From contig QHOP01000302.1 in assembly GCA_003219345.1 (NCBI GenBank), forward strand, positions 1-35,268: 35,268 bases of DNA, in the 5' to 3' direction. Source of the DNA: Verrucomicrobiota bacterium (lineage in GTDB: Bacteria > Verrucomicrobiota > Verrucomicrobiia > Limisphaerales > AV2). The notes beneath the pieces are model-generated. The model was not told where the DNA came from, searched no databases, and saw only the letters and a list, made by a program, of their open reading frames with translations. Each line of letters begins with the position of its first letter. The stretch's first letter is position 1. Below, piece by piece: positions 4,020-35,268 of this stretch. Made by a program: the position numbers and the translations under genes.

Positions 4020-4107
4020 CGAATTCGCGCACCGACCCTTCACCCTGTCCGACGGGGAGAGATTTCTCGGAAAAATTTCGCGCATTGAGCCCCTGAACCC
4101 CGAGAGG

Positions 4108-4169
4108 CCCCCTCACCCGACCTCCGGCCACCCTCTCCCCCAGTGGGGGAGAAGGAAGGGGTGAGGGGG
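4108..4169. repeat. Palindromic repeat family A, full copy (CCCTCACCCG...CCCTCTCCC...GGGGAGA...GGGTGAGGG)
   Basis: CCCCCTCACCCGACCTCCGGCCACCCTCTCCCCCAGTGGGGGAGAAGGAAGGGGTGAGGGGG; near-identical copies at 6881-6942 and 12995-13052. Confidence 0.8.
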
Positions 4170-4231
4170 TTCATGGAAAGAATTCCCCGAAATGAAAATT
4201 CGCGCGTTGAACCCCCTGAACCGAGGGAAAA

Positions 4232-4340
<109 letters not shown>

Positions 4341-4508: not shown

Positions 4509-5366
4509 TTACGCAACTTTCTGTTTCCTCTGCTTTGCCGGCTTGACTTCGACCGCTTCCTTGCGCTCGCCCTTGGCTCGTTCCATCGGCTTCTTCTTCG
4601 CTTTCGCCTGGTCGATGCTCTGCTTGAGCGCGGTCATAATGTCCACCACCGGCTTTTCCTCATCGGGAACGCTTACCACTTCCTTGCCGGCAATTTTCGC
4701 CTCAATCATCTCGCGCAGCGCGTCGCGATAGCGATCCGTCAAATCGAGTTCCTTGAGAGTTGAGGCCATGGATTCCACCAGACTGATCGAGAGTTTCAAT
4801 TCATCCTTGTTCACTGCTTTGTGCTCGATCTGCGGAACGCTCTCCATTTTCCGCACTTCACTCTGCTGCCGCAATTTATAAAGGACGAGTCCGCCGTCCA
4901 GGGGCGCAATCATCACGACTTCCTCGCGATCGCGCAAAACGACTTTACCAATGCCCACTTTCCCGCTCGCCTTCAGTGCCTCGCTCAACAAGGAATAGGT
5001 TTTCGTCGCGACCAATCCGTCCGGGCCGGCGAAATACGGCGATTCATACAGCGAGGGATGGACTTCGCCGGCGTCAATGAATCCTTCGATTTCGATAACT
5101 TTGGTGCTCTTGAGCTTGATCTTGGCGAGATCGTCCGGCGAAACGATCACGTATTGTTCCGGCTCGAACTGATAACCCTTGACGATCTCTTCCGTCGTGA
5201 GCGCCTTCCCGCACTTCTTGCATTTCTTTTCGTAACCAACGGCGCCGTTATCGTCCTTGTGCAATTGGTTGAACCGGATCGTTTCTTCCGTGTCCACGGC
5301 GTTGTAGATCCGGATCGGAATGGTAACCAAAGAAAATCGAATGTGCCCTTTCCAGATCGATCTCAT
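4509..5366 (-). CDS. ku: Non-homologous end-joining protein Ku
   Basis: MRSIWKGHIRFSLVTIPIRIYNAVDTEETIRFNQLHKDDNGAVGYEKKCKKCGKALTTEEIVKGYQFEPEQYVIV..., classic prokaryotic Ku with Lys-rich C-terminal tail. Confidence 0.95.
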   Translation of the reverse strand: MRSIWKGHIRFSLVTIPIRIYNAVDTEETIRFNQLHKDDNGAVGYEKKCKKCGKALTTEEIVKGYQFEPEQYVIVSPDDLAKIKLKSTKVIEIEGFIDAGEVHPSLYESPYFAGPDGLVATKTYSLLSEALKASGKVGIGKVVLRDREEVVMIAPLDGGLVLYKLRQQSEVRKMESVPQIEHKAVNKDELKLSISLVESMASTLKELDLTDRYRDALREMIEAKIAGKEVVSVPDEEKPVVDIMTALKQSIDQAKAKKKPMERAKGERKEAVEVKPAKQRKQKVA

Positions 5367-5447
5367 AACACACCTCGTTTCAGGTCGATGGTTGCGTTCA
5401 TAGGTTTGGCGAACAGGCAGGGAGCCTACCCCGGTTTCACCCGCCAT

Positions 5448-7844
5448 TCAAGGTTTGATTTGGAATCCCAGATCCGGCCTCAGCCTCACAAATACCGCTT
5501 CTCGCAACAGGCCTTCTGTGGTCAATGAAGCGAATTGCACCTCGCACATCAGTTTCGGCTCAATCCAGACAGACCGCGCATCATCGGGCGGTTTCTCTTT
5601 AATTGGCCTTTTGATCGTTTTTACCTTTTGCAATTCAGCGGCAACAGCCTTGAATGAATCATTATCAAATCCCGTTCCGACTTTCCCGAGATACTTAAGC
5701 TCATCGCCGTTTGCTTCTGCCAGGTGCAGCGCGCCGAAACTCGCTTCCCGGTCGCCCTTGCCCTTCGTGTAACCGATGATCACGCACTCCAGGGTCTGTC
5801 GCGTTTTAATCTTCAACCACGAGTCGCTTCGCTTGCCGGGCAGATACGGGCTGTTGCGCTGTTTGGCCATGATGCCTTCGAGACCCATCTCTTTCACGGC
5901 CTGGAAGAAAGCCGCTCCTTCTTCGACGACCTCACTCGCGCGATAAGCCGACCCCTTTTTGATCGCGTCTTGCAGCCACTCGCGCCGCCTTGTCAGCGGC
6001 TCATTAACAATCGGGCGTCCATCCAGGTAAAGGCAATCGAACACATAACACACCGCCGCGTGTTTGGCCCTGGCGCGTTCGATTCCCCCTTCCGTCTTTT
6101 GCTGCATGCGCTGGATCACGTTTCGGAAATTGGGCTTTCCATCCGCCTCCAGACAGACAATCTCTCCGTCAAACAGCGCGGAGGTTGCGCGAAACGCCTG
6201 TTCGGGAATCAGCAATTCAGGGAATTGTTCGGTCACATCCAACCCGTTGCGACCGCGAATTTTTATTTGTCCCTCATCCAAAGAAATCATCGCGCGAATG
6301 CCGTCCCATTTGACCTCGTAAACGTAATCTTCGGAATCCGGCGGCTTGTCCGCGGCCCGCGCCAGCATCGGCTCAATCGGATCACGCAGCCAGTCCGTTT
6401 GCGGGTTGTCCACGCGTTCGAGCAGCCACTGATTCTCCCGGGTATGGTGCGTGCGATATTCGGCGTTCAACTCGCGCGATTGCAAACGAAAATAGAATCC
6501 GTCCTTTTTCTGTTTGGTGATTTCGTACCGGCCCTGCGCGAATTTCCACATCATACCGCCGCCGTATTCGCCTTTGGGAATCGCGCCTTCGAAATGGACG
6601 TATTCCAGCGGATGATCCTCCACATTGACCGCCAGCCGCATGATGCCGGGCCTCGGCGGCAACCCTTTGGGAACAGCCCACGATTTCAAGACGCCGTTTT
6701 GTTCCAATCGCAAATCATAATGCAGCCGGGAAGCATGATGCCGGTGAACGACAAAAGCGCTTCCCGTTCCCCTCACCTCATCGGATGGGGAGAGGGGCGG
6801 AGGCGGCGGCTCCGCTGTCTTGTCGAAGCTGCGTTTCCTGGAATAGCTTTCGAGCTGTTCCGGCGTTTTGAAGGTGCGCGCACCCTCCCTCGCCCTGCGG
6901 GCACCCTCGCCCCCAACGGGGGAGAGGGACGGGGTGAGGGGGCGCTTCGGCTCTTTCTTTTCCGTGTGAATCGGCGCTGCGTAGGCGGCGATTGCTTCCC
7001 ATGGGTCCCCGTTTTGCATGACCCGCCGGGGAACGCTGTGAAGATCGAACGCCTTGGGACTTTCAATAGACTCCAGCTCCTCCCAATGCAGCGGAGTCGA
7101 AACCGGCGCGCCGGGAAGTCCGCGCACGCTGTAGGAGGCGACGATCGTTTGTGATTGCCGGTTGCGGTAAACATCGAGCAGAACCTTGCCTTTCCGGTGT
7201 TCCTTCCTGATCTGCAGCGTCAATACCGACGCGTGCGAATCCACGAACGGCTGGGCAACGGCCTTGGCTGCCTCAAATATTTTGTGAAATTCCCACTTCG
7301 GCTCGATCGGCGCCAGGACGTGCAAACCCTTGCGTCCCGTCGTCTTGACGAACGGATGGTAGCCGAAACTCTCGAGATGCTCTTTGAATTCCAGAGCAAG
7401 GCCTGCGACATCCGGAAACTTGAAATTCTCCGGCGGGTCGAAGTCGTACACGATGTAATCCGGCTTGTCAAAATGCGGCGCGCGCGAATGCATCTGGTGC
7501 AGTTCGATGCACGCCAGGTTCGCCAGCCAGACGAGCGACGCTTCCTCGGTCGCGATAACGTAATCCTTTTTTTCTTCGCCGAGCGTCACATGCTGGATCC
7601 AGTCAGGCGCCCAATCCGGCCGGTTTTTCTGAAAGAACGACTCCCCGCCGATGCCGTCCGGATACCGCACCAGCGACAATGGCCGCCCTTTCAGGTGCAG
7701 CAGAATCGTCGGCGCAATTTTGAGGTAATATTCAATGAGCTGCGCTTTGACGATGTGGTCGTCGGGAAAAAGAACTTTCGTCAGATTCGAAAGTTCAATC
7801 TTCCGTTTGCCAACCTGGGCTATTTGAGCTGTGCGCGAGGGCAT
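5448..7844 (-). CDS. ligD: Multidomain ATP-dependent DNA ligase LigD (polymerase-phosphoesterase-ligase order)
   Basis: N-term KIELSNLTKVLFPDDHIVKAQLIEYYLKIAPTILLHLKGRPLSLVRYPDGIGGESFFQKN (Pol); FVVHRHHASRLHYDLRLEQNGVLKSWAVPKG (PE); EPMLARAADKPPDSEDYVYEVKWDGIRAM (ligase KxDG). Confidence 0.95.
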   Translation of the reverse strand: MPSRTAQIAQVGKRKIELSNLTKVLFPDDHIVKAQLIEYYLKIAPTILLHLKGRPLSLVRYPDGIGGESFFQKNRPDWAPDWIQHVTLGEEKKDYVIATEEASLVWLANLACIELHQMHSRAPHFDKPDYIVYDFDPPENFKFPDVAGLALEFKEHLESFGYHPFVKTTGRKGLHVLAPIEPKWEFHKIFEAAKAVAQPFVDSHASVLTLQIRKEHRKGKVLLDVYRNRQSQTIVASYSVRGLPGAPVSTPLHWEELESIESPKAFDLHSVPRRVMQNGDPWEAIAAYAAPIHTEKKEPKRPLTPSLSPVGGEGARRAREGARTFKTPEQLESYSRKRSFDKTAEPPPPPLSPSDEVRGTGSAFVVHRHHASRLHYDLRLEQNGVLKSWAVPKGLPPRPGIMRLAVNVEDHPLEYVHFEGAIPKGEYGGGMMWKFAQGRYEITKQKKDGFYFRLQSRELNAEYRTHHTRENQWLLERVDNPQTDWLRDPIEPMLARAADKPPDSEDYVYEVKWDGIRAMISLDEGQIKIRGRNGLDVTEQFPELLIPEQAFRATSALFDGEIVCLEADGKPNFRNVIQRMQQKTEGGIERARAKHAAVCYVFDCLYLDGRPIVNEPLTRRREWLQDAIKKGSAYRASEVVEEGAAFFQAVKEMGLEGIMAKQRNSPYLPGKRSDSWLKIKTRQTLECVIIGYTKGKGDREASFGALHLAEANGDELKYLGKVGTGFDNDSFKAVAAELQKVKTIKRPIKEKPPDDARSVWIEPKLMCEVQFASLTTEGLLREAVFVRLRPDLGFQIKP
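6770..6798. repeat. Partial copy of palindromic repeat family A inside ligD
   Basis: CCCCTCACCTCATCGGATGGGGAGAGGGG, encoding ...PPLSPSDEVRG... in the LigD frame. Confidence 0.65.
6881..6942. repeat. Full copy of palindromic repeat family A inserted in frame inside ligD
   Basis: CACCCTCCCTCGCCCTGCGGGCACCCTCGCCCCCAACGGGGGAGAGGGACGGGGTGAGGGGG, encoding PLTPSLSPVGGEGARRAREGAR within the Pol-PE linker. Confidence 0.8.
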
Positions 7845-12956: not shown

Positions 12957-12993
12957 GAACCCGGCCCAAGTCCTTTTGTTTGACCTGAACTAA
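12957..12993 (+). pseudogene. 3'-end remnant of a second pirin-like gene
   Basis: AACCCGGCCCAAGTCCTTTTGTTTGACCTGAACTAA (NPAQVLLFDLN*) matches the end of the intact pirin gene, AAACCGGCGCAAGTCCTTTTGTTCGACCTGAGTTAA (KPAQVLLFDLS*). Confidence 0.75.
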
Positions 12994-12994
12994 T

Positions 12995-13052
12995 CCCTCA
13001 CCCGACCTTCGGCCACCCTCTCCCATCGGATGGGAGAGGGACAGGGTGAGGG
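12995..13052. repeat. Palindromic repeat family A, full copy
   Basis: CCCTCACCCGACCTTCGGCCACCCTCTCCCATCGGATGGGAGAGGGACAGGGTGAGGG. Confidence 0.8.
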
Positions 13053-13193
13053 CCTCGTGCACCTGAAGTTCTTACTCATAATCTTTCTCATAATCGTAAT
13101 CTTCTGATTCACCCAAACCAGAAACAAGAGACTTTCTCGGTTGTCTCCGTTCTCTTCTGTTAAAAAGCGAAAACCCAAACGAAATTCAACACA

Positions 13194-20686: not shown

Positions 20687-22120
20687 TCAGGCGAGCAAGT
20701 CTTTGACGACGTTGCCCGCCACGTTGGTCAGGCGCAGGTCGAGCCCCTGGAATTTCACCGTGAGCCGTTTGTGGTCGATGCCGAGCAGGTGCAGGATCGT
20801 GGCGTGCAGATCGTGCACGTGGACGATATTTTCCACCGCGTTGTAGCCGAGTTCGTCCGTCGCTCCGTAAGTGAGTCCGCCCTTGACGCCGCCGCCGCAC
20901 AGGAACATCGAGAAGCCTTTCATGTGATGGTCGCGACCCGGCCCACCTTTGTCTTTCTGGGCCATCGGCGTCCGGCCAAATTCGCCGCCCCAGATAATGA
21001 GCGTGTCGTCGAGCATGCCTCGTTGCTTCAGGTCCTGGATGAGGGCCGCAGTGGCGCGGTCCACGTGAGCCGCGTTCTGGCGGATGAATTTGACGAGGTC
21101 GTTGTGATGGTCCCAGTCGCGATGGTAAAGCTGGATGAACCGCACCCCGCGTTCGGCGAGGCGGCGCGCAAGGAGGCAGTTGGAAGCGAACGTGCCATCG
21201 CCCGGTTGGCAGCCGTAAAGGTCGAGGATGTGTTTCGGTTCGTTGGCCACGTCCATCAGGCCGGGCACGGAGGTTTGCATCCGAAAAGCCATTTCGTATT
21301 GCGCGATGCGGGTGGCAATCTCCGGATCGTCCACGATGCTCCGCTGCGAGCGGTTCAGCGATTGCACGGCCGTGACGAGGTCGTGTTGTTGGGCCTCGCT
21401 GACGCCGGGGGGACGGTTGAGATAGAGGACCGGGTCGCCTTTGGACTGCAAATGCACGCCCTGAAATTGTCCGGGCAGAAAGCCGCTGTGCCACATGCGC
21501 GTCGAGATGGGCTGCGGGCTGCGGCCCTCGGTGGAGGTCAGCACGACGAAGCCGGGTAAATTCTCGCTCTCGCTGCCGAGGCCGTACAACACCCAGGAAC
21601 CCATCGAAGGCCGCCCCGAAATGGTCGTGCCGGTGTTCATGAGCGTGTGCGCCGGATCGTGGTTGATGGCATCGGTGACCATCGAGCGGATGATGCAGAG
21701 GTCGTCGGCCACAGTGCCGATATGCGGAAACAGTTCGCTGATTTCCTGGCCCGACCGTCCGTGTCGCGAAAAGGCAAACTGCGGCGCAAAACAAGCCAAG
21801 TCCTGACCTTGAAGCTGGGCGACTTGCTGTCCTTTGGTGAATGACTCGGGCATCGGTTGCCCGTGCAGTTTGGCGAGCTGCGGTTTGTTATCGAACGTCT
21901 CCAGGTGCGACGGTCCGCCCGACATGTAAAGGAAGATGACCCGCCGGGCACGCGGCGGATGATGTGGCGGATTCACCACGCCCGTCCAGCGGGCCTTCGA
22001 GGTAACTGCGCTTCGCACGAGGCCGGGGTTCAACAGGCTCGCCAGCGCCATCAGGCCGAGACCGGAGCGACCGAGAAATGCCCGGCGATTAATCGCGAGC
22101 GTTGACGGAACCGACTGCAT
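20687..22120 (-). CDS. DUF1501 domain protein (Tat-exported), paralog B
   Basis: INRRAFLGRSGLGLMALASLL...RARRVIFLYMSGGPSHLETFDNKPQLAKLHGQPMPES...IIWGGEFGRTPMAQ...VHDLHATILHLLGIDHKRLTVKFQGLDLRLTNVAGNVVKDLLA. Confidence 0.95.
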   Translation of the reverse strand: MQSVPSTLAINRRAFLGRSGLGLMALASLLNPGLVRSAVTSKARWTGVVNPPHHPPRARRVIFLYMSGGPSHLETFDNKPQLAKLHGQPMPESFTKGQQVAQLQGQDLACFAPQFAFSRHGRSGQEISELFPHIGTVADDLCIIRSMVTDAINHDPAHTLMNTGTTISGRPSMGSWVLYGLGSESENLPGFVVLTSTEGRSPQPISTRMWHSGFLPGQFQGVHLQSKGDPVLYLNRPPGVSEAQQHDLVTAVQSLNRSQRSIVDDPEIATRIAQYEMAFRMQTSVPGLMDVANEPKHILDLYGCQPGDGTFASNCLLARRLAERGVRFIQLYHRDWDHHNDLVKFIRQNAAHVDRATAALIQDLKQRGMLDDTLIIWGGEFGRTPMAQKDKGGPGRDHHMKGFSMFLCGGGVKGGLTYGATDELGYNAVENIVHVHDLHATILHLLGIDHKRLTVKFQGLDLRLTNVAGNVVKDLLA

Positions 22121-22130
22121 CAGATTCGGC

Positions 22131-23591
22131 TCACGCGAGAATCCCATCGATCACTTTGCCGGAAACGTTCGTCAGCCGGGCGTCCAGGCCCTGGAATTTC
22201 ACCGTGAGCCGGGTGTGTTCGATGCCCAGCAGCCGGAGCATGGTAGCGTGCAGATCATGAACATCCACCGGGTCCTCCACGGCCGTGTAACCCAGTTCAT
22301 CGGTCGCGCCGTAAATGAGTCCGCTCTTGATCCCGCCGCCGCACAGCCAGATGCTGAACCCGGCGTTGTGATGGTCGCGGCCATCACCGCCCTGGCTCAT
22401 GGGCGTTCGGCCAAATTCGCCAGCCCACACAATGAGCGTGTCCGCGAGCATGCCCCGCTGTTTGAGGTCGGTGATCAGCGCCATGCAGGCGCGATCGACT
22501 TCCTGGGCTTTCAGCGTTATGCCTTCCTTGACGCCGCCGTGGTGGTCCCAGTCCTTGTGGTAAAGCTGGATGAAACGCACGCCGCGCTCCGCCAGCCGGC
22601 GCGCCAGCAGGCAGTTCGAGGCGAACGAACCGTCACCCGGCTTGCCGCCATAAAGATCGAGAATGTGCTGCGGTTCCTTGCGGGTGTCGATCAACTCCGG
22701 CACGCTCGCCTGCATTTTAAAAGCCATCTCGTATTGCGCGATGCGCGTTGAAATCTCCGGGTCATCCACGACGGCATCGTATTTTGAATTGATGGCGTTC
22801 ACGGCCTTGACCACGTCGTGTTGTTGCTCGCGGGTGACGCCCGGCGGTGCGCCGAGGTAAAGAACCGGATCGCCCTTGCCGCGCAGGTGCACGCCCTGGA
22901 AACGACTGGGGAGAAAAGCGGACGCCCATTGGCGCGCGGCGATCGGCTGGTTCTGGCCGCCTTTGCCAAGCGACGTGAGCACCACGAAGCCGGGCAACTC
23001 CTCCGCGTCCGAGCCCAACCCATAGACAACCCAGGCGCCCATGCTGGGACGACCGGCGATCTGCGAGCCGGTGTTCATGAACATGTGAGCCGGGTCATGA
23101 TTGATCGCTTCGGTGGTCATCGAGCGGATGATGCAAATGTCGTCCACCACCGAGCCGATGTGTTCGAACAGTTCGCAAATCTCCGCGCCGGACTTCCCGA
23201 ACTTCCTGAACTTGAGCTGCGGGCCGTAACACAACAGCTCCTTGCCCTGCAACTGCGCGAGCTGTTTCCCTTTCGTCATGCTCTCGGGCATCGGCTTGCC
23301 GTCCATCTCCGCCAGCTTCGGTTTGGGATCAAATGTTTCGAGATGCGACGGTCCGCCCGCCATCGAAAGCCAGATGATCCTCCTGACCTTTGGTGGAAAA
23401 TGGGGCGGATTGACCACACCCGTCCATTTGTCTTTCTTCGACGCCGCCTGGGCAGTCGCCGCGCGCAGGAGGGTCGGATGAATGAGCGACGCGAGCGCCA
23501 GCATGCCGACGCCCTGGGACGCACGCCCGAGAAACGCGCGACGCGTTTGTTGCAAAAGAGCGAACTGACGAAATTCGGAAACGGGGTTCAT
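22131..23591 (-). CDS. DUF1501 domain protein (Tat-exported), paralog A
   Basis: TRRAFLGRASQGVGMLALASLI...VRRIIWLSMAGGPSHLETFDPKPKLAEMDGKPMPES...VWAGEFGRTPMSQGGDGRDHHNAGFSIWLCGGGIK...LTVKFQGLDARLTNVSGKVIDGILA. Confidence 0.95.
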   Translation of the reverse strand: MNPVSEFRQFALLQQTRRAFLGRASQGVGMLALASLIHPTLLRAATAQAASKKDKWTGVVNPPHFPPKVRRIIWLSMAGGPSHLETFDPKPKLAEMDGKPMPESMTKGKQLAQLQGKELLCYGPQLKFRKFGKSGAEICELFEHIGSVVDDICIIRSMTTEAINHDPAHMFMNTGSQIAGRPSMGAWVVYGLGSDAEELPGFVVLTSLGKGGQNQPIAARQWASAFLPSRFQGVHLRGKGDPVLYLGAPPGVTREQQHDVVKAVNAINSKYDAVVDDPEISTRIAQYEMAFKMQASVPELIDTRKEPQHILDLYGGKPGDGSFASNCLLARRLAERGVRFIQLYHKDWDHHGGVKEGITLKAQEVDRACMALITDLKQRGMLADTLIVWAGEFGRTPMSQGGDGRDHHNAGFSIWLCGGGIKSGLIYGATDELGYTAVEDPVDVHDLHATMLRLLGIEHTRLTVKFQGLDARLTNVSGKVIDGILA

Positions 23592-23594
23592 GGT

Positions 23595-26576
23595 TCAGGA
23601 ACGAGTAATGGTTTCGTGAAGATTCAGAATCACTCGCGCGACATTCGTCCACGCGGCCAGCTCTGCGGGATCAAGGTCCTTCGAGGCCGGCGACAAACCG
23701 ACTTTCAGCAGCGATTCAGCAGCTTGCGTGTCCTGCCGGTATTCTGCGAGGTGCTTGTCGAGCAGCGCGTGGACAGTACTCATCTCGTCGGCGCGCGGCG
23801 CTCGTGACAAAGCCTGCTGCCAGGCCCATTTGATTCGGACTGTCGTGTCGCCACCACCTTCGGTGAGGATGCGCGCAGCGAGGGCGCGCGCGGCTTCGAC
23901 GTAGGTCGGGTCATTCAAGAGCGCGAGCGCCTGCTGGGGAATATTCGAGCGATTCCGCTCGGCGGTGCATTCCTCGCGGCTGGGCGCGTCGAACGCGAGC
24001 AGACTCGGATGAAGGAACGAGCGCTGCCACCAGGTGTAAAGACCGCGGCGATACTGGCTCTCGCCCCGGTCGGCCTCGTAGGTGCGAGTGGGGAAATTCA
24101 GATTCTCCCAATAGCCGTCCGGCTGATACGGCTTCACGCTCGGACCGCCAATTTTGGGGACGAGCAAGCCGGCGATGCTGAGTGCATTGTCCCGCACCAG
24201 TTCGGCCTCGATCCTCCAACGGCTTTGACGGGCCAGCTCGCGGTTGTAGGGATCGCGGGTTTGCAGTTGCTTCGACGCGGTCGAAACCTGTTTGTAAGCG
24301 TGGCTGTTCACGATGAGGCGGACCAGGTGCTTCACGTCCCAACCGCTGTCCATGAATTCACACGCCAGCCAGTCGAGCAGCTCCGGATTCACCGGCGGTT
24401 CGCCTTGCATTCCGAAATCGTCGAGCACCTTGGACAGGCCGGTGCCGAAGAACTGTTTCCAGAGCCGGTTGACGAAGACCCGCGCCGTGAGCGGGTTCTC
24501 GCGCGACACGATCCACTCGGCCAGGTCGAGGCGATTCAACCGCCGGTCATGCGCGTGCCGGGCCGACGTGGTCAGATAGGCCGGGAGGGCGGGTTGCATG
24601 ATCTCGCCGCTTTCGATCATCCAGTTACCGCGCGGCAAAGTGCGCACGGTGCGCGGTTCATCCGCAGCGACAGAGACCAGGCAGTGTGGAACGGCAGCTT
24701 CGAAATCCGTCCTGGCTTTCGTCGCGTCGGCAACGCGGTGTCGCTCGTCAATCAGTTCCGGGGCCGCGCTTCGTTGATACGCGGCGAGCTTTTGTTTCTG
24801 GTCTTCCGTGCGCTCCTTCGCTGCCACCTTCAACAGCTCCACGATTTCAGGCCGCGGCAGAGCGGTCTTCGGCGCGCGAACGGCACTCGGATTCGTCGTC
24901 GCGGCCAGACGGAATCGCCCGAGCACCTGATTGCCGCCACCGGTCTGCTGGATGACGAATGTGACACTGCTTTCGCCTTCGTTCACCATCGGTTCCTTCA
25001 CCGCGAAATAAATCGCCTGCTCAACGCCCGTCACCCCCTTGATCGCCCAACCGTTCTTTCCTTCCTGCTGGCCGTTGGCGTCTTCGACACTGAACTCGGT
25101 GAGAATGAAGTTTCCGTCTCCAGCGCGGCCCGGGCCATGTCCGGGGAGTTTCGCCGCGCTCAGTGCTTCGAGGCGAAAGCCAACCACGCTGTTCCAGTTC
25201 GTTTTGACCGTGATGCGATAAGTGTCCTTGCCATCCTTCGGGTCTTTTTCCGTGCTGATGATCCGGTCCTCGCCAACTGTAAGCTTCACGCCCGCTTCCG
25301 AAATCATCTTTTCGGGCGCCAGCAGCGTCCAGTTGGTCTCCGCGGCGATGGCTTCGAGCGCGGCTTTCTCCCACCTCTCCGCCAACTCAGGACGTGGCGC
25401 CTCGTATTCCCTCTGGAGCCGTGTTACTTCGCTGTCGAGTTTGGCGAGTTCGGCCGCCTGCTTCTGGTCCGGCACCAACATGCCGTCTTCGCGACGGCCG
25501 ATGATCGGCTCCTTGATGTCGGCGAAGAATGCGCCCAGCGAATAGAAGTCGCGCGACGTAATCGGATCGAATTTGTGGTCATGGCACTGGGCGCAGCCGA
25601 TCGTCTGTCCCAACCACACCGTGCCGACCGCGCGGACGCGATCCGTGAGCATGCGCGCTTCGTAATCCTTGGGCTGCGCTCCGCCTTCCTCGGTGGTGAG
25701 CAGCAGGCGATTGAAAGCCGAGCCGACCTTCTGCTCGAGGCCGCTGTTGGAGAGCAAATCGCCAGCGAGCTGTTCGCGCGTGAACTGGTCAAAGCGTTTG
25801 TTTTCGTTGAAAGACCTGATGACGTAATCCCGATACGGCCAGATGTTGCGCGGGTTGTCCGAGTGGTAACCGATCGTGTCCGCGAACCGCACGACATCGA
25901 GCCAGCCGATGGCCATGCGTTCGCCGTAGTGCGGCGACGCCAAGAGATTTTCGACCAGCCTGGCGTAGGCTTCAGGCGACTTGTCTTCCTGGAAGGCGGC
26001 GACTTCTTCGGGCTTCGGCGGCAGACCGATGAGATCGAAGCAGAGCCGGCGCGCGAGCGTGCGTCGGTCCGCCTCCGGCGAAGGTTGCAGGCCAATCTCC
26101 TTCAGGCGCTTTTGAACGAGAAAATCAATCCCGTTTCGACCTGTGGGCACAGATGGCTTGACCGGCGGCACGTAGGCCCAGTGCTTCTGGTACTCTGCGC
26201 CCTGAGCGATCCACCGTCGAAACAACTGCTTTTGCTCCGGCGTGAGTGTCTTGTGCGACTCAGGCGGGGGCATGAGATCATCCGTGTCGGTCGTAAAAAT
26301 GCGCTGGATCAGTTTGCTCTCGTCCGGTTTTCCAGGGACAATCGCCAGCTTGGCAATCGCCTCTTCGCGCACGTCGAGGCGGAGTTTGCCCTTGCGCTTG
26401 TTCTGGTCCGGCCCGTGGCAAAAGAAGCAGTTGTCTGAGAGCACGGGCCGGATATCGCGGTTGTAGGAGATTTTCTGCGCCGCCGTCGCAGCCACGGCCG
26501 CGGAAATGATCGCTGGCACCGATAGAGCCGTGCCCAGGTTTCGACACATCCGAACGAAAGCCTTAGATACTGTCAT
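23595..26576 (-). CDS. PSD1/cytochrome c domain protein (PSCyt1 + DUF1549 + DUF1553)
   Basis: ISYNRDIRPVLSDNCFFCHGPDQNKRKGKLRLD (PSCyt1 CxxCH); ARRLCFDLIGLPPKPEEVAAF...HYGERMAIGWLDVVRFADT (DUF1549); CAQCHDHKFDPI; TARVFVNRLWKQFFGTGL...LLDWLACEF (DUF1553). Confidence 0.95.
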   Translation of the reverse strand: MTVSKAFVRMCRNLGTALSVPAIISAAVAATAAQKISYNRDIRPVLSDNCFFCHGPDQNKRKGKLRLDVREEAIAKLAIVPGKPDESKLIQRIFTTDTDDLMPPPESHKTLTPEQKQLFRRWIAQGAEYQKHWAYVPPVKPSVPTGRNGIDFLVQKRLKEIGLQPSPEADRRTLARRLCFDLIGLPPKPEEVAAFQEDKSPEAYARLVENLLASPHYGERMAIGWLDVVRFADTIGYHSDNPRNIWPYRDYVIRSFNENKRFDQFTREQLAGDLLSNSGLEQKVGSAFNRLLLTTEEGGAQPKDYEARMLTDRVRAVGTVWLGQTIGCAQCHDHKFDPITSRDFYSLGAFFADIKEPIIGRREDGMLVPDQKQAAELAKLDSEVTRLQREYEAPRPELAERWEKAALEAIAAETNWTLLAPEKMISEAGVKLTVGEDRIISTEKDPKDGKDTYRITVKTNWNSVVGFRLEALSAAKLPGHGPGRAGDGNFILTEFSVEDANGQQEGKNGWAIKGVTGVEQAIYFAVKEPMVNEGESSVTFVIQQTGGGNQVLGRFRLAATTNPSAVRAPKTALPRPEIVELLKVAAKERTEDQKQKLAAYQRSAAPELIDERHRVADATKARTDFEAAVPHCLVSVAADEPRTVRTLPRGNWMIESGEIMQPALPAYLTTSARHAHDRRLNRLDLAEWIVSRENPLTARVFVNRLWKQFFGTGLSKVLDDFGMQGEPPVNPELLDWLACEFMDSGWDVKHLVRLIVNSHAYKQVSTASKQLQTRDPYNRELARQSRWRIEAELVRDNALSIAGLLVPKIGGPSVKPYQPDGYWENLNFPTRTYEADRGESQYRRGLYTWWQRSFLHPSLLAFDAPSREECTAERNRSNIPQQALALLNDPTYVEAARALAARILTEGGGDTTVRIKWAWQQALSRAPRADEMSTVHALLDKHLAEYRQDTQAAESLLKVGLSPASKDLDPAELAAWTNVARVILNLHETITRS

Positions 26577-26754
26577 GGTTTTCTCCCGGCACCGTGCTCG
26601 CGCTTGAGCGTGGCCGGGAATGTGTCACCCATCCTAAGGCAATTCAGCCCGGCGATCAAAGGCAGAAATTCATGCCGTGCGGGCGGGGCGCATCTTGGGC
26701 ACTACCACCCTGTCGAGTCCGCTCTGCAGGATTTCCGAAGACCCACCCTGTCCC

Positions 26755-26785
26755 ATGAACCCGGACGAACATCCAACATCGAACA
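26755..26785. repeat. Palindromic repeat family B, single arm
   Basis: CATGAACCCGGACGAACATCCAACATCGAAC is the exact reverse complement of the sequence at about 4309-4340. Confidence 0.75.
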
Positions 26786-26808
26786 TCCATCAACGACCAG
26801 GGGACGAC

Positions 26809-26842
26809 AAAAAAGCGAGGCCGGGTTTCCCCCGAACCTCGC
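26809..26842 (-). terminator. Rho-independent terminator of RRM copy 2
   Basis: Minus strand GCGAGGTTCGGGGGAAACCCGGCCTCGC-TTTTTT. Confidence 0.85.
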
Positions 26843-26864
26843 TGGATGAAAACGCGCTGACTTC

Positions 26865-27185
26865 CTAGTAGCGACTGCGGCCACCGCCACGACCGCCGCC
26901 AAATTCGCGACGACCGCCGCCTCCGCCCGGACGCTCTTCGCGCGGGCGAGCGATGTTGACCGTGAGGGCGCGGCCGTCCAACTCGGCCCCATTCAGGGCC
27001 TCGATGGCCTTCTGTGCCTCTTCCGGCGTGCTCATGGTGACGAAGCCGAAACCCCGGGGACGGCCGCTCATGCGGTCCATCATCAGGTTGGTTTCGACCA
27101 CCGTGCCGTGCGCCGCAAAGGCGTCCTGCAGATCGTTCTCCGTGGTGTTGAAGGAAAGATTTCCAACAAACAGTTTTGTGCTCAT
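26865..27185 (-). CDS. RNA-binding protein, single RRM domain with Gly/Arg-rich tail (copy 2)
   Basis: [51 protein letters not shown]...[20 protein letters not shown]; close paralog of 1638-1943. Confidence 0.95.
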
Positions 27186-27350
27186 GTGATGTTTTACTGT
27201 CCGACTTACGCTGTTCTCACCAGACTGTTCCCGACTACCGGGTTTCAAATCATCACTGAACCAGGTTCACTTGAGGATTTTCCATGCCGTGGGATTGACA
27301 AGCTATCTAACAGTTGGGCGAAACATGGACTTTTCTGGCGGAATAGCAAC
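27186..27350 (-). promoter_or_regulatory. Putative long 5' leader of RRM copy 2, conserved with copy 1
   Basis: Aligns by eye along nearly its whole length to 1944-2110 (see findings). Confidence 0.65.
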
Positions 27351-27455
27351 CGATTTTTTTAGAATTTTTTTCACGTTTTCACGCCTTTCCGCCCCTTCCG
27401 GTCGGAAGCGGCTGCGCAATAACCAACACGGCCCATCTGAGACTGAAATGTGCCT

Positions 27456-29312
27456 TTATTTTTGCGCTGCCTTGGGCAGGGAGAAGTAAAAGGTCGCGCC
27501 CTCGCCGGGTTTACTTTCGGCCCAGACGCGGCCACCGTGCCGGACAACAATGCGCCGGACGTTCGCCAGGCCGATGCCGGTGCCTTCAAATTCGTCGGCG
27601 CGATGCAGGCGCTGGAACACACCGAACAGTTTGTTCGCATATCGCATGTCAAACCCGACGCCGTTGTCGCGAACGAAGACCACCGCCTCCGCGGACGTCT
27701 CGCTGGAGCAGCCGGTTTCAATCTCACCCGCGTCGCGCGGGCGAGTGTACTTCACGGCGTTGCCCAGCAGGTTGACCAACACCTGGCGCAGCATGGCCGG
27801 ATCGCCTTCGACTTTTGGCAGGCGGCTGTTTTTCCAAACGATGTTGCGGCCTCGAACGTCCTGTTCCAGGCCGTGGATTGTCTCCTGAATGAGCTTCTCT
27901 AAATCCACCGTCTTCTTCCGCATCTCCGTCCGACCCACACGCGAGAAGACCAGCAGGTCATCGATGAGCGTGCCCATTCTTTTGGCCGACTCAGAAATCG
28001 TGTTCAAATAACGCCTGCCCTTTTCGTCCAACGCGTCGGCAACGTGCTTTTCGAGCATATTGGCAAAGCCGTCGATGTGGCGCAGCGGAGCGCGCAAGTC
28101 GTGTGAAACAGAATAAGTGAACGCTTCGAGCTCCGCGTTGGCGGCTTCGAGTTGCGAGGTGCGCTCTTTGACGCGGTGTTCCAGATCCTCGTTCAGGCGG
28201 CGGATCTGTTCGTCCGCCTGCTCGATTTGCCTCTGGCGTTGCTGCAACCGCTCCGCCATTTCGTCGAAAGCGCCCCCGAGTTGAACCAGCTCTGCGCCAC
28301 CCTGAATTCCGCCAGTTCGGGCGCTCAGGTCCCCTTCCGCCAACCGGTTGGCAGCCGCCACCAGCGCGTGGATCGGGCGCAAAAGGAATCGCTGCCCATA
28401 GAACCGGGCCCCCAGCAGGATTACGACGGCCACCAGGCCCAACACAATGGTGTTGCGAACCAGGGCTTGATTGGCTCGAGTGAAAGAAACGTTCAGCGGA
28501 ATCCCCACGCTGACGAACAGAGCGGGCGATTGGCCGTCGTTAATCGCTGTCATCGAGTGCACTCGCGGAACGCCGTCCACCCCTGTCAGCTCAAAGGTTC
28601 CCTTCGGTTGCGACAGAATCCTCTGCACAAAGGGAACACCGGACAGAGATTTGCCAACCCATTTTTCCGCCTCGGGGTAGCGGGCCAAAACCTTTCCGCG
28701 CCGGTCAACCACAATCAGCGCCCCGCCCGAAGGAAGACCAACGTGTTCGGCCGCCTCCGACAACCGGGACAGTTTCAAGGAAGCAAACAGAACCCGCTTG
28801 AGCTTTCCCCGCTCGTCGAGCACCGGGTATCCAAAATTCAGCGCCGGCTGGCCTGTCAACCGATCCACTTGAAAATCGTCGATGGAAAACAGCTTCGTCT
28901 GAATGACCCGCTGAAAAAAGGAGCGATCAGCGAGATTCACGGAACCATTCGTGGCTGTCGCGCTGCAAAACAGCGTTCCGTCCGCTTCGATCAATCCAAA
29001 GTCGAAGTAATCCGGCGCCAGGAGTCTCAGGTTGGAAAAATGAGTTTCGCAGAACGGTCGGTTCGTCGCCAGAACCAGGAAGGGAGATTGCGCGAGTGTG
29101 GCGAGCAATTGGCGGCTGTTCTTGATGAAGTTCTCCTCATTGGCCACCGCCAGTTGAGAGATGGCAGCGACCCCTTCTCGCACGCGGGCCTTTTCAATTC
29201 GACGTTGTTCCAGATTGCCGTACAGCACCAGTCCGAACGCGGGAATAACCAGCAGCAGCACCAGCAGGTTCAACCTCGTGCGAAGAAGCGCGGAGAATGA
29301 GGCCGGAGCCAT
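27456..29312 (-). CDS. Membrane sensor histidine kinase (dCache-like sensor, HAMP, HisKA, HATPase)
   Basis: N-terminal TM plus extracytoplasmic region; [29 protein letters not shown]-box [24 protein letters not shown] box [13 protein letters not shown] boxes [12 protein letters not shown] and [13 protein letters not shown]. Confidence 0.93.
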
Positions 29313-29319
29313 AGTCAGG

Positions 29320-29680
29320 TCAGCCGCTTGTTGACGACTCCCGAATTCGGTTTGGAAAAGATGAACTCACCTAACGGATGTCTTTTACGGAGAAATGGCT
29401 TTGACTCTGAATTTCTACCATTCGCACGCCGCCCAACGCAAGGAATACGTTCAAATCCACAGCCTTTCTCATCCAGAGCGTTGATATTTGTTCCGTGCGC
29501 CAACAGTATTTCCGCGATTTCTTTGTTTCCATTCTGTGCTGCCTCGGCAAAGGAGTGATGCCCGTGCTGCTCTTCGCATTGACCGCAACGCCCTTGTCCA
29601 ACAGAAAAACAACCGTCTCCCTTTGATGTATGCAGAACGGCCAGATGCAGAAGCGTAAGTCTCCCCACTCTCTAGCTCGT
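29320..29680 (-). pseudogene. Decayed ankyrin-repeat gene fragment with frameshifts
   Basis: TLLHLAVLHTSK in one frame, ETVVFLLDKGVAVNAKSSTGITPL in a second, AEAAQNGNKEIAEILLAHGTNINALDEKG back in the first. Confidence 0.8.
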
Positions 29681-29775
29681 GGCCTGTGGATTCACACGGG
29701 ATATCACGCCGCGCGTGAATCAGGTTGACTGACAGTCCATCGAATGGTTTCGTGCATCTTGTGACTACCTGGTCG

Positions 29776-32400
29776 ATGCGAAACACTGTACTAGGTTTGG
29801 CAGCCATGCCCTCTCTCCTCCTGCTCGTTGACGACCTCGAAGCCGCAACCTCCGGTGAGACACTCTTTTCTCGGGAAATTCGTCCGCTGTTGGAAACGCA
29901 TTGTTTCAAATGTCACGGGCCCGAAAAGCAAAAGGGCGGGTTGCGGTTCGACACGAAGGAGGGAGCATTCAAAACGGGCGAGTCGGGCGAAAAAGCCATC
30001 ATGCCGGGACACGCCAAAAAAAGCCGGCTGATCAAACTGGTTTCGTCGAAGGATGACGACGAGCGAATGCCCTCCAAAGGCGAGCCATTGTCCGCCGCGC
30101 AGATCGACCTGCTGAAACGTTGGATTGACAGAGGCGCGGAATGGTCGGAGGCGGTCGCATCCACAGGTGTCGTGAGGCGTTCGGAAATGGTTGTCACGGA
30201 TGAGGACCGCAAACATTGGTCTTATCTTCCTCTCAACAGTCCGCCTCTGCCTTCGGTCAAAAACACGGTGCCCGTCCGCACGCCGGTGGATCGTTTCATC
30301 CTGGCGCGGCTGGAAGAGAAGAAACTGGGGCTTTCGCCTCAAGCCGGCCCGCAAAAGCTCGTGCGCCGAATTTATTTCGATCTCATTGGCCTGCCCCCGA
30401 CGCCGGAGCAGGTCGAGTCGTTCGCCCGGCAATTCGCGAAAAACTCTCGATTGGCCGTGGAATCACTCGTCGATCAACTCCTGGCCAGCCCGCATTACGG
30501 GGAACGCTGGGCGCGTCACTGGCTCGATGTGGTGCGTTACGCCGACAGCGATGGACAGGAAAGCGATGCAGACAGGATCACGGCTCATCACTATCGCGAC
30601 TTCGTCATCCGCAGTCTGAATGACGACCTTGCGTTCGACACGTTCGCGCGCTGGCAACTCGCCGGCGACGAACTTGAACCGGACAATCCACAGGCCACTG
30701 CCGCGACCGGTTTCATCGTCGCGGGCACGCACGCCGTGCTGGCTGACAACCTGATGGAGGAAGAGAGAACTCGCGAGCGCTTTAATGACCTCGACGATAT
30801 GATCACGACGACGGGCGTTGCGATGCTCGGCCTGACTTTGGGTTGCGCCCGGTGTCACGATCACAAATATGATCCTGTGCCGCGACGCGATTATTATCGG
30901 ATGCTCTGCGCGTTCAATGGCGGCGACCGCGCGGAAGTGCCGCTCGCTCCGCTCGAAGTAGTTCGCCGCTACCGCGAAGCGGAAGGAAAGTGGAAGGGAG
31001 AATTCGACATAGCGAAGAAACGGCTGGACGATTGGTTAAAAGAAGCAAAGAAGCCGCACGAGACAGCGGCGCGCCACGCGAAAATTGACGCGTTGAAAAT
31101 CAGCGACGACGAAAAGGTCCTTCTGAAAAGAGCTCCTGACACCAAGGAAGCCAAAGAGCTGGCGGAAAAATTCTCCAAGGAACTCAAAGTTGAGGACAAG
31201 GATTTCCGGCCTCTCCTTTCCGATGAAGAGCGCGCCGAGTGGGACGCGAGAGAGAAAGCATTGAAAGCTGTGGAAGCGCGCAAGCCGGAAGCGCTGCCCA
31301 CCGCGCTCGCTTTCGCCGACTTCAACGCGAAACCGCGCGAGACCTTTTTGCTCGCGCGCGGTGATTTCCGCGCGAAGAGCGAGCCGGTGGAGTTGGGGTT
31401 TCTCACTGCGCTTACCAGAGGCAAATCGCCCGCGGATTACTGGGCAGCCGCGCGCGCTGAAAGCCGCCGGTCCGATTCCACCCAACAGCGGCGCGCCCTG
31501 GCGGAATGGATGACGGACACCGACCACGGCGCGGGCGCGCTGGTCGCGCGCGTGATCGTGAATCGCGTCTGGCAGCATCACTTCGGGCAGGGGCTGGTTC
31601 GCACGGTCAACGATTTCGGGGCGAGATGCGACCCGCCCACACACCCCGAATTGTTGGAATGGCTGACGAGCGAATTCGTGAGAGGCGGCTGGAAATTAAA
31701 ACCGTTGCATCGGCTCATCATGAACAGCTCGGTCTATCTTCAAGACACCGCGTTCGACGCCGCGAAGGCAAAGGTGGACCCGGACAACCGGCTTCTCTGG
31801 CGGCGTCGTCCGCTACGGATTGAATCCGAGATTCTGCGCGACGCCATGCTGGCGGTCAGTGGGACGCTGAATCCGCAAATGTTCGGCCCGGCAGTGAAGG
31901 CGCCCATCGCGCCCGAAGCGATTCAGGCCCGGAACATGACGGACCCGTATCCGAAGGACCTGAAGGACACCCCTTTTACGCGCCGGCGCAGCATTTACAT
32001 GTTTCATAAACGTGTCGTGCAGAACCCGCTCATGCAGGCATTCGACGGACCGGATGCGCAGGCCAGTTGCGGTCGCCGCGAAAACACCACCGTCGCGCCG
32101 CAGGCGCTGGCGCTCTTGAACGACAAGTTCGTGCGCTCGCGTGCGATGGACTTCGCTGAAAGGGTCGGCAAGGAAGCAGGCGCGGAACCTGAAGCCCAAG
32201 TTCGCCTGGCCTGGCGACTGGCGCTGGGACGCGAGCCGTCCGCCGGTGAACTGGAATCGGGAACAGCCTTCATCAGCGACCGGCTTCAGCAGCGTTCGAC
32301 GCGCGAACCGGGCAAACCTGAAAGGGATCTGCAAAACCTCGCGCTCGCGGATTTTTGTCAGGCGATGTTCGCCCTGAACGAATTCATTTACGTGGATTGA
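29776..32400 (+). CDS. PSD1/cytochrome c domain protein (PSCyt1 + DUF1549 + DUF1553)
   Basis: FSREIRPLLETHCFKCHGPEKQKGGLRFDTK; RIYFDLIGLPPTPEQVESF; HYGERWARHWLDVVRYADSDG; CARCHDHKYDPV; VIVNRVWQHHFGQGLVRTVNDFG. Start could also be 29725. Confidence 0.93.
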   Translation: MRNTVLGLAAMPSLLLLVDDLEAATSGETLFSREIRPLLETHCFKCHGPEKQKGGLRFDTKEGAFKTGESGEKAIMPGHAKKSRLIKLVSSKDDDERMPSKGEPLSAAQIDLLKRWIDRGAEWSEAVASTGVVRRSEMVVTDEDRKHWSYLPLNSPPLPSVKNTVPVRTPVDRFILARLEEKKLGLSPQAGPQKLVRRIYFDLIGLPPTPEQVESFARQFAKNSRLAVESLVDQLLASPHYGERWARHWLDVVRYADSDGQESDADRITAHHYRDFVIRSLNDDLAFDTFARWQLAGDELEPDNPQATAATGFIVAGTHAVLADNLMEEERTRERFNDLDDMITTTGVAMLGLTLGCARCHDHKYDPVPRRDYYRMLCAFNGGDRAEVPLAPLEVVRRYREAEGKWKGEFDIAKKRLDDWLKEAKKPHETAARHAKIDALKISDDEKVLLKRAPDTKEAKELAEKFSKELKVEDKDFRPLLSDEERAEWDAREKALKAVEARKPEALPTALAFADFNAKPRETFLLARGDFRAKSEPVELGFLTALTRGKSPADYWAAARAESRRSDSTQQRRALAEWMTDTDHGAGALVARVIVNRVWQHHFGQGLVRTVNDFGARCDPPTHPELLEWLTSEFVRGGWKLKPLHRLIMNSSVYLQDTAFDAAKAKVDPDNRLLWRRRPLRIESEILRDAMLAVSGTLNPQMFGPAVKAPIAPEAIQARNMTDPYPKDLKDTPFTRRRSIYMFHKRVVQNPLMQAFDGPDAQASCGRRENTTVAPQALALLNDKFVRSRAMDFAERVGKEAGAEPEAQVRLAWRLALGREPSAGELESGTAFISDRLQQRSTREPGKPERDLQNLALADFCQAMFALNEFIYVD

Positions 32401-32433
32401 GGACAGCACTAATCCACGTAGAGAAATTCGTTC
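32376..32433. terminator. Inverted repeat spanning the convergent 3' ends of two PSD1 genes; candidate bidirectional terminator
   Basis: GAACGAATTCATTTACGTGGATT-(12 nt)-AATCCACGTAGAGAAATTCGTTC; 20 of 23 positions pair, inner 10 bp perfect. Confidence 0.55.
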
Positions 32434-35162
32434 GCACTGAGCAACGCCTGGCAGAGATCGGTGAGGGCTTGCAGTTCGGGCGGGGGGTTCGGGGCAGGCT
32501 TGGTCTTTTCCCCCTTCTGCGCCTTCTCGTCCGTTTCCTCGACCACCGTTTGCAGGTGGTCCGCCTGCCGCGACAGGAATTCGAGCGCGTCGGCCAGCTC
32601 CGATACGGTCGGATTTCGGCTGAAGGCCAGTTGCCAGGCGCGGGCCACCTCGCGGACGCGGTCGTCCGCGGCTTCCGCGTGCAAGCGCTGTGCGAAGCGC
32701 GCGGCCTGGTCGAGGATGAACTGGCTGTTCATCAGCATGAGCGATTGCGTCGCGACCGTGGACGATTGGCGTCGCTCGCAGTTCACTTCCATCACCGGCG
32801 CGTCGAACGCGTGCAACATCGCCAGCGGACGGCTGCGCCGCACCTGGATGTAAATCCCGCGACGAAATTCCTCTCCCTTGAGCGGCACTTCGACCGGCAT
32901 TTTGTTGTCGCCTTCGGTCTTGTCGATGCCGACGACGATCTGGCCGTGCACATCCGGGCGCACCGGCACGGGCGGGCCGAACATCGTTTCGTTCAACACG
33001 CCGCTGGCGGCCAGGATCGCGTCGCGGATGACTTCGGCATCGAGACGATTGACGGGTTTGCGCCAGTAGAAGCGATTTTCGGGATCGCGCTGCTCGCGGC
33101 GGGGATCGCGGCGCGAGGATTGGCGGTAGGCGGTCGAGGTCATGATGAGTTTGTGCAATCGCTTCAATTGCCAGCCGTGCTCAACAAAATCGTTCGCGAG
33201 CCAGTCGAGCAATTCGGGATGAGACGGCCGTTCACCCATGACGCCAAAGTCCGACGGCGTGCCGACGAGGCCGCGTCCGAAATGGTGCTGCCAAACGCGG
33301 TTCACCAGCACGCGGGCGACGAGCGGGTTCGTGCCGCTGGTCAGCCATCGGGCGAAGGCGAGCCGGCGGCCGCTCGTGGCGAGGTCAGGATTCTTCGACG
33401 GCAGGTCCACTGACTGACCGGGGGCCGTGAGCACACTCAAGGCACCCGGCAGGATGGGTTCTTTCGGCTGTTTGGGATCACCGCGATGAAAAAGATAGGT
33501 GACCGGCAGCTTGTCCGCGGGTTCGGTCAGGACGCAAATGAAATCCTCCGGCGGTTTGCGTCCGCGAATCTCGGCGATCTTCGCGTCCATCGCCTTCAAG
33601 TCGTCGGCGGCCTTTTGATTGTATTGGTAGAGGACGCCGGCGTTGATGTTTACGCTGGGATTATCGGCGAGGAGCTTTTTTTGCTCGGCGGTGCGTTTGT
33701 CGGCGGGCGTGTCGTAAGCGGCCCGCAGTTGATCGCGCAAGGGCGCTTCAAATTTCTCGAGATGCTTCATCAAGGCTTCATCGATGTATTGCTTCTGCTT
33801 CGTCTCCTTTTCTTCGGAAAGTTTCTTCGCTTCGGCTTCGACTTCGTCGGCCTTCTTTCGGTCGGCATCGGTGTAAAGCGAAAGCAGGCGCTGGTCCGGT
33901 GTGCGCCAGTTCTTCCAGTCATACGCAGGCTCGATCACGGCGCGGAGCCGGTAGTAATCAGTCTGCGGAATCGGATCGTAGCGATGATCGTGGCATTGGG
34001 CGCAGCCGACGGACAACCCAAGCAGCGACGTGGAGACGATCTTGATCGTGTCAGCCACGACCTGGTTGCGCACGGCGCCCGGATCACTCAGGGCCGGAGT
34101 GGCGGTGCCATCGACGCCCATGCGGAGGAAGCCGGTGGCGATGAGTAATTCGCGCAATTGTGGGTCGGCCAGTGCGGCTTGCGGACTGCCCTGGGTCGCG
34201 CGTGCGAGTTCATCGCCGGCGAGTTGTTCGGTGATAAAGCGGTCAAATGGCTTGTCGGAATTGAAGGACCGGATGACGTAGTCACGATACTTGTAGGCGT
34301 AGCCCCGCGGCGGGTCGGCGTCGCTATAGCCGTCCGAGTCGGCGTAACCCGCGACGTCCAGCCAGTGGCGGCCCCAGCGTTCGCCGTAATGCGGGGAGTC
34401 GAGCAATCGGTCGATGAGCTTTTCGTAGGCATCGGGCGCCGTGTCCGCAAGGAATGCCTCGACCTCGGCGGGCGTCGGCGGCAGGCCCGTGAGATCGAAG
34501 CAGGCGCGGCGTACCAACGCCACCTTTTCAGCGTCGGGCGAGAAACTGAGTTTCTGCTTCACGAGCGCGCTGACCAGGAACGCATCGATGGGCGTGCGGA
34601 CGCGGTCTTTGGTTTTGGTCTTTGGGATGGCGGGCTGGCGGATCGGCTGGAACGACCAGAAAGCGCGCTCTTCCTCGGTGATGGCGCCGCCCTTGCCCAA
34701 CTCGGCCGGTTCGGGACGGGCGGTCTTCGCGCCGGCGGCGATCCACTGTTTGATCAACGCCACCTGTTCGCGGGTGAGCTTCTTGTCGCGCTTCGGCATT
34801 TCGCCGCTGTGAACCAGCTTGAAAAGCAAACTCTGGCCGGGCTTACCGGGGACAATCACTGGGCCGTCCTCGCCGCCTTGAAGCATCAATCGTCGCAGGC
34901 GCAGGTCGAGCCCGCCTTTCAACTTTTCGCCTTCACCGTGACATTCGAAACAATGCGCCTTGAGGATCGGGCGTATGTCCTTCTCGAACGTCGGCGAAGC
35001 AGCGCGGCAAACAGGAAAGGATAATAGAAGAGAACAGAGAGACCGCAGACCCCAGGAATCAGATGACAGAATGGATCGCTTCTTTCCTATCCTGCAAGTG
35101 CTCAGTTTGCTCCGCTGCCTCCTGTTGAGGATTCTGATTCTGCCCTGCATGAGCCCCTTCAT
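32409..35162 (-). CDS. PSD1/cytochrome c domain protein (PSCyt1 + DUF1549 + DUF1553)
   Basis: FEKDIRPILKAHCFECHGEGEKLKGGLDLRLRRLMLQGGEDGPVIVPGKPGQS; ACFDLTGLPPTPAEVEAF; HYGERWGRHWLDVAGYADSDGYSDAD; CAQCHDHRYDPI; VLVNRVWQHHFGRGLVGTPSDFG. Start at the ATGA overlap with the upstream gene. Confidence 0.93.
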   Translation of the reverse strand: MKGLMQGRIRILNRRQRSKLSTCRIGKKRSILSSDSWGLRSLCSLLLSFPVCRAASPTFEKDIRPILKAHCFECHGEGEKLKGGLDLRLRRLMLQGGEDGPVIVPGKPGQSLLFKLVHSGEMPKRDKKLTREQVALIKQWIAAGAKTARPEPAELGKGGAITEEERAFWSFQPIRQPAIPKTKTKDRVRTPIDAFLVSALVKQKLSFSPDAEKVALVRRACFDLTGLPPTPAEVEAFLADTAPDAYEKLIDRLLDSPHYGERWGRHWLDVAGYADSDGYSDADPPRGYAYKYRDYVIRSFNSDKPFDRFITEQLAGDELARATQGSPQAALADPQLRELLIATGFLRMGVDGTATPALSDPGAVRNQVVADTIKIVSTSLLGLSVGCAQCHDHRYDPIPQTDYYRLRAVIEPAYDWKNWRTPDQRLLSLYTDADRKKADEVEAEAKKLSEEKETKQKQYIDEALMKHLEKFEAPLRDQLRAAYDTPADKRTAEQKKLLADNPSVNINAGVLYQYNQKAADDLKAMDAKIAEIRGRKPPEDFICVLTEPADKLPVTYLFHRGDPKQPKEPILPGALSVLTAPGQSVDLPSKNPDLATSGRRLAFARWLTSGTNPLVARVLVNRVWQHHFGRGLVGTPSDFGVMGERPSHPELLDWLANDFVEHGWQLKRLHKLIMTSTAYRQSSRRDPRREQRDPENRFYWRKPVNRLDAEVIRDAILAASGVLNETMFGPPVPVRPDVHGQIVVGIDKTEGDNKMPVEVPLKGEEFRRGIYIQVRRSRPLAMLHAFDAPVMEVNCERRQSSTVATQSLMLMNSQFILDQAARFAQRLHAEAADDRVREVARAWQLAFSRNPTVSELADALEFLSRQADHLQTVVEETDEKAQKGEKTKPAPNPPPELQALTDLCQALLSANEFLYVD

Positions 35163-35268
35163 GACTCTCGTAAAATCTCCGTCACCACGCGGCACGGTTT
35201 GTTGTCGGTGATGCGTTGTTCCTGGCCGTTGTGGTGGTAAATGAGCTTCGTGTGGTCGAGGCCGAAGA
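35159..35268 (-). CDS. C-terminal end of a DUF1501 domain protein (continues outside window)
   Basis: Minus frame FGLDHTKLIYHHNGQEQRITDNKPCRVVTEILRES*, a typical DUF1501 C-terminus; TGA overlaps the ATG of the PSD1 gene. Confidence 0.8.
   Translation of the reverse strand, partial: FGLDHTKLIYHHNGQEQRITDNKPCRVVTEILRES

Follow-up and report, generated by a model that had tools for sequence, protein, structure and literature searches.

RRM proteins are common in bacteria outside the model organisms, and we know of little on how they are regulated or which targets they bind. The window analysed here, the whole of a 35,268-nucleotide stretch of DNA from a Verrucomicrobiota bacterium, contains two RRM-protein genes preceded by similar non-coding sequence, which raises the question of whether this sequence is a trace of duplication, a conserved promoter or a regulatory RNA. 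As set out below, the element is very probably a cis-acting RNA leader of RRM-protein mRNAs in the Verrucomicrobiia, a reading already put forward in a preliminary description of this DNA and now backed by a class-wide alignment and by covarying pairs.

Two RRM genes, their leaders and their promoters

The two genes and their leaders lie where the preliminary description had placed them, and the sequences it had quoted, with a common distal block and a small hairpin, were all found as given. The features of copy 2 and copy 1 are listed below, with E values from two covariance models, R1, built from 38 leaders, and R2, a more sensitive model.

27186–27316 (−): leader RNA of RRM copy 2; full-length match, R1 E = 1.3e-32 (whole genome), R2 E = 3.2e-33
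26865–27185 (−): RRM gene copy 2; 106 aa, C-terminus rich in Gly/Arg, Pfam RRM_1 4.5e-22
27342–27349 (−): predicted promoter −35 region of copy 2, TTGCTATT, the distal block mentioned above; TTGCnATT profile from 105 non-redundant leaders
27322–27327 (−): predicted promoter −10 region of copy 2, CATGTT (CAnnnT); 16 nt spacer, A and T conserved, fixed distance
27248–27279 (−): P3 arm of copy 2, AATCCTCAAGTGAACC..GGTTCAGTGATGATT; from RNAalifold and pair counts
27230–27242 (−): P4 hairpin of copy 2, CCCGGTAGTCGGG; from pair counts, with two-sided changes from C-G to U-A
26821–26835 (−): terminator-like hairpin 3′ of RRM copy 2

1944–2075 (−): leader RNA of RRM copy 1; full-length match, R1 E = 9.0e-30, R2 E = 1.3e-29
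1638–1943 (−): RRM gene copy 1; 101 aa, from the open reading frame and orthologs
2101–2108 (−): predicted promoter −35 region of copy 1, TTGCTATC; from the comparative promoter profile
2081–2086 (−): predicted promoter −10 region of copy 1, CAGGCT; from the comparative promoter profile
1989–2001 (−): P4 hairpin of copy 1, CCCGACGTTCGGG; from copy comparison and pair counts
1591–1620 (−): terminator-like hairpin of 12 pairs between RRM copy 1 and infA
1297–1512 (−): infA (IF1), the next gene past RRM copy 1; translation MKEEHIEVEG...

The leaders of the two copies are 77% identical and their coding sequences 76%, close values that would suit the competing explanation of the preliminary description, namely that the likeness is a mere remnant of recent duplication. 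Each window leader, however, is 89% identical to leaders from other families as against 77% to its partner, and leader conservation extends throughout the class; on these two grounds recent duplication is excluded and retains next to no likelihood. Within the 100 nt 5′ of both promoters, identity between the copies is 49%, which is the random level.

Comparison of 105 non-redundant leaders shows that conservation is nil upstream of about −62 relative to the CTGTTAGAT end, and, with the same numbering, yields a promoter profile composed of an A/T tract, TTGCnATT at −36 to −29 and CAnnnT at −14 to −9. A sigma-70 consensus scan missed this promoter, which scored under its threshold; the comparative profile detected it. 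Judged by this profile, the distal block TTGCTATYCC represents the promoter's −35 element, and the transcribed leader would therefore measure about 130 nt: the shared leader of some 165 nt in the preliminary description holds as a conserved element but not at that length. The start site predicted from the promoter is expected to coincide with the 5′ end of the leader. At the other end, AAACATCAC is the consensus directly before the start codon, where Shine-Dalgarno-like words are not in excess (22 of 132, with 15.9 expected).

Elsewhere in the window, adjacent Ku and LigD genes (4509–7844, reverse strand), of the bacterial end-joining type, include a palindromic repeat at 6880–6942 that falls within the LigD reading frame and is translated through as PLTPSLSPVGGEGARRAREGA. 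This repeat belongs to a dispersed palindromic set, CCCTCACCC...GGGTGAGGG, also present at 4107–4169 and 12992–13054, and a second repeat family, AACATCGAACATCCAACATCG, occurs at 4230–4266 and 26761–26811. From a look at the sequence only, the region 20687–35195 appears to hold four large planctomycete-type cytochrome/DUF1549-DUF1553 genes, and 20687–22147 and 22131–23591 two paralogous DUF1501-like genes.

Predicted fold of the leader RNA

RNAalifold returned an identical core for sets of 12, 38 and 79 leaders, comprising P2 (GGC-UG with CA-GUC), P3 (an arm of about 12 pairs) and P4 (CCCGR...YCGGG). The last of these is the small hairpin of the preliminary description, which is indeed present and turns out to be one of four helices rather than the whole structure. 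In a MAFFT alignment of the 79 leaders, this three-way-junction fold has 91.3% of cells paired versus at most 51% in slid controls, two-sided changes occur in 15 of 26 pairs, and none of 500 shuffles reaches the real value on any of five pairing measures, figures that come from a sequence-only alignment not fitted to structure, from which the structure itself was derived, and from counts that ignore phylogeny. Covariation is limited within the strongly conserved core, and the unpaired letters flanking P4, GAAA on its 5′ side and AA on its 3′ side, are near-invariant (0.84–1.00). Folded as single sequences, the two window leaders are not unusually stable (z = +0.6 and +0.7), so the structural case is one of comparison and not of energy; by comparison, a conserved, covarying secondary structure of the leader RNA is supported.

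The fourth helix, P1, is a long-range stem in which CUGUUAGAU at the 5′ end pairs with a GUCGGACAG-type sequence directly before the start codon, ending about 10 nt 5′ of it. Its sequence varies by lineage (for example UUGGA/UCCAA and GGUGUU/AACACC), and in an alignment-free comparison cognate strands pair at −11.6 kcal/mol versus −9.9 for non-cognate ones, a gap reached in 0 of 5000 permutations; composition controls account for 0.1–0.6 of the 1.7 kcal/mol. This cognate pairing bears on the possibility that a DNA-level promoter or operator alone is conserved and the RNA is functionless. A conserved promoter does stand upstream, as that explanation requires, but about 100 nt are conserved downstream of the inferred start and the compensatory pairs are strand-specific, which, together with P1, makes it highly improbable.

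Spread of the leader and the genes behind it

Queried with the copy-2 leader, the host genome gave two further convincing sites beyond the window copies, and a whole-genome covariance-model search likewise gave four leaders, three before RRM genes and one before a fatty-acid desaturase (Pfam FA_desaturase); the third of these RRM genes is followed by infA. In the genus, leaders are present in 5 of 5 genomes examined, with the desaturase leader in four of them. Of 196 genomes of the order, 191 have RRM genes, and nearly all of 30 RRM loci read there are preceded by the leader. R1 detects it in 52 of 62 genomes sampled from the order, almost every one from a family of its own; counted by family, the leader is present in about 51 of the 60 sampled. 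At the level of the class Verrucomicrobiia it was found with a covariance model in 126 of 291 genomes, and in a neighbouring class R2 detects it in a single family, in four genomes, the one locus read having it before an RRM gene. The leaders of RRM orthologs thus align past the start codon across order and class. In an exact-pattern scan of named genomes, the leader turned up under the labels Verrucomicrobia, Limisphaerales, Pedosphaera, Opitutaceae and Methylacidimicrobium. It was also seen in metagenome bins that carry the names Klebsiella, Nevskia, Akkermansia muciniphila and Proteobacteria (L271, L262, L206, L225 and similar), which are probably mislabelled or mixed. One 19-nt exact match, TTCAGTGATGATTTGAAAC (L005, G000:C341:13867-13885), lies in repeat-like DNA with the remainder of the leader missing, and was set aside on those grounds.

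In the order sample, 112 leader matches comprise 99 before RRM genes (assigned from coordinates or by inspection), 10 before other genes and 3 running off contig ends, which puts 99 of the 109 readable matches upstream of RRM genes. The exact-pattern scan gave 111 before RRM genes, 2 before other genes and 5 at edges (one of its loci, L303, being a repeat of L101). The ten non-RRM leaders of the order sample precede infA in three cases and infC in one, desaturases of two kinds, two fatty-acid hydroxylase-like genes, one DEAD-box helicase gene and a gene for a 135-aa protein; nine of the ten readable cases, all but the last, concern the gene kinds considered below for a cold link. A further infA case comes from another order (L152) and a further helicase case from the pattern scan (L285), which brings infA to four loci and the DEAD-box helicase to two, beside infC, the two desaturase types and the two hydroxylases. 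The leader-adjacent infA homologs are IF-1 by Pfam; the hydroxylase match falls under the Pfam cut-off (27.6 versus 31 bits). Two further loci are recorded here as observations: at L106 (G012:C74) the 135-aa protein has no Pfam match, and L089 (G014:C61, 544–3593) packs three leaders into 3 kb, those of two RRM genes on one strand and that of a fatty-acid desaturase on the other.

These non-RRM genes, infA, infC, desaturases, fatty-acid hydroxylases and DEAD-box helicases, are of kinds that take part in bacterial cold responses. At one helicase, one hydroxylase and one desaturase, alignment to RRM gene starts reveals RRM-gene remnants 3′ of the leader, scoring above every shuffle, and the helicase itself opens with an in-frame RRM remnant, MNREFRVGSIALDASEKNTQDAVAAHA; on the strength of these remnants we conclude that leaders outlived their RRM genes and now serve the neighbours. 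The infA cases call for more caution, since infA often follows an RRM gene and its leaders may reflect plain RRM-gene loss, saying little about cold.

A broad regulon was considered and rejected: R2 gave one to six leaders per genome, nearly all on RRM genes and with a clear score gap below, so the element is best described as an RRM leader with rare captures and not as a general regulon site. Genome searches found no leader at other standard cold genes such as the host csp gene. That RRM proteins replace cold-shock-domain proteins was likewise ruled out, with CSD proteins present in 23 of 30 genomes of the order.

Possible control by the leader and its relation to known RNAs

With a promoter marking its 5′ limit and the start codon its 3′ limit, the leader would, as the promoter position implies, be transcribed within the downstream mRNA, fold as the P2, P3, P4 junction with its ends held together by P1, and control translation or stability of the mRNAs that carry it, including, occasionally, those of other genes that have taken it over. 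The RRM proteins and the products of the captured genes would probably be made in the cold. That leader control is cold-linked we consider likely, because of the kinds of captured genes and by analogy with cyanobacterial RRM genes; the cold context suggested in the preliminary description accordingly gains support from the captured genes. The likeliest signal would be binding of the RRM protein to its own leader, and the linkage of gene and leader suggests direct autoregulation, to which we give slightly less than even odds. For the explanation as a whole, a cis-acting leader giving cold-linked, RRM-protein-responsive control, we estimate a probability of about 0.6.

The cold link could also be met by an intrinsic thermosensor of the cspA type, in which the leader refolds in the cold and boosts translation with no protein needed. 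A long structured 5′ UTR on genes for RNA-binding proteins and of cold type, a stem extending near the start codon and the lack of Shine-Dalgarno words are all in keeping with it, and E. coli cspA provides the precedent for such a thermosensor (PMC9800685). The cspA leader (RF01766) resembles the RRM leader in being a long 5′ UTR on a gene for a small nucleic-acid chaperone, but its protein has a CSD domain, unrelated to RRM, and the sole match of RF01766 in the host genome is the csp gene, under the gathering cut-off (45 versus 78 bits), with no leader matched. Moreover, a thermodynamic folding model predicts no rise in start-region accessibility in the cold (unpaired probability 0.43 at 5 °C and 0.50 at 37 °C), and the core is conserved far beyond the needs of a pure melting switch, so that we regard a protein-free thermosensor as unlikely. 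Since no cold opening is predicted and the junction is highly conserved, a protein reader is favoured, with the RRM protein as the obvious candidate. The aptamer-like, near-invariant unpaired letters of the junction (GAAA before P4, AAC after) might instead receive a small molecule, as in a riboswitch, or another RNA-binding protein; the downstream genes, however, form no metabolic pathway and no Rfam aptamer matches, and such a ligand seems to us rather improbable beside RRM-protein control.

No family of Rfam 15 matches the leader at gathering or permissive thresholds. Among the closest known RNAs is the Chlorobi-RRM RNA motif (RF01697), a conserved motif listed as cis-regulatory, named for RRM genes and reported from Chlorobi only (PMC2864571). 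Like the Verrucomicrobiia leader it is associated with RRM genes; it differs in being a 73-position model, and its search of the host genome gave no match at E ≤ 1, as permissive cmscan gave none in the leader loci scanned. Cyanobacterial RRM proteins have a role in cold adaptation, and their genes carry conserved cold-response 5′-UTR boxes (PMC9333190). Type-I rbp genes share with the genes described here RRM proteins with Gly-rich tails and conserved 5′-UTR elements, but the rbp boxes, compared by description only, are described as short and not as a covarying fold. RRM genes and Verrucomicrobia are absent from the main text of two large ncRNA discovery papers, and a prior listing in Weinberg 2017 is possible. 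Structured leaders of RNA-binding-protein genes are a known kind; the family described here, with its fold and its uptake by other genes, appears to be new among the RNA families and papers compared.

Being class-wide, covarying and bounded, the leader offers a concrete candidate target RNA for bacterial RRM proteins, and from the capturing genes we see what can be placed under its control. It may represent a new class of structured leaders, ancestral to the Verrucomicrobiia, by which RRM proteins regulate their own production together with that of the capturing genes (IF1, IF3, desaturases, fatty-acid hydroxylases and DEAD-box helicases), a proposal we hold tentatively. RRM autoregulation, and whether it drives cold adaptation, become directly testable questions; if the proposal is true, the leader would be a portable RNA module for cold response, able to outlive the RRM gene from which it came.
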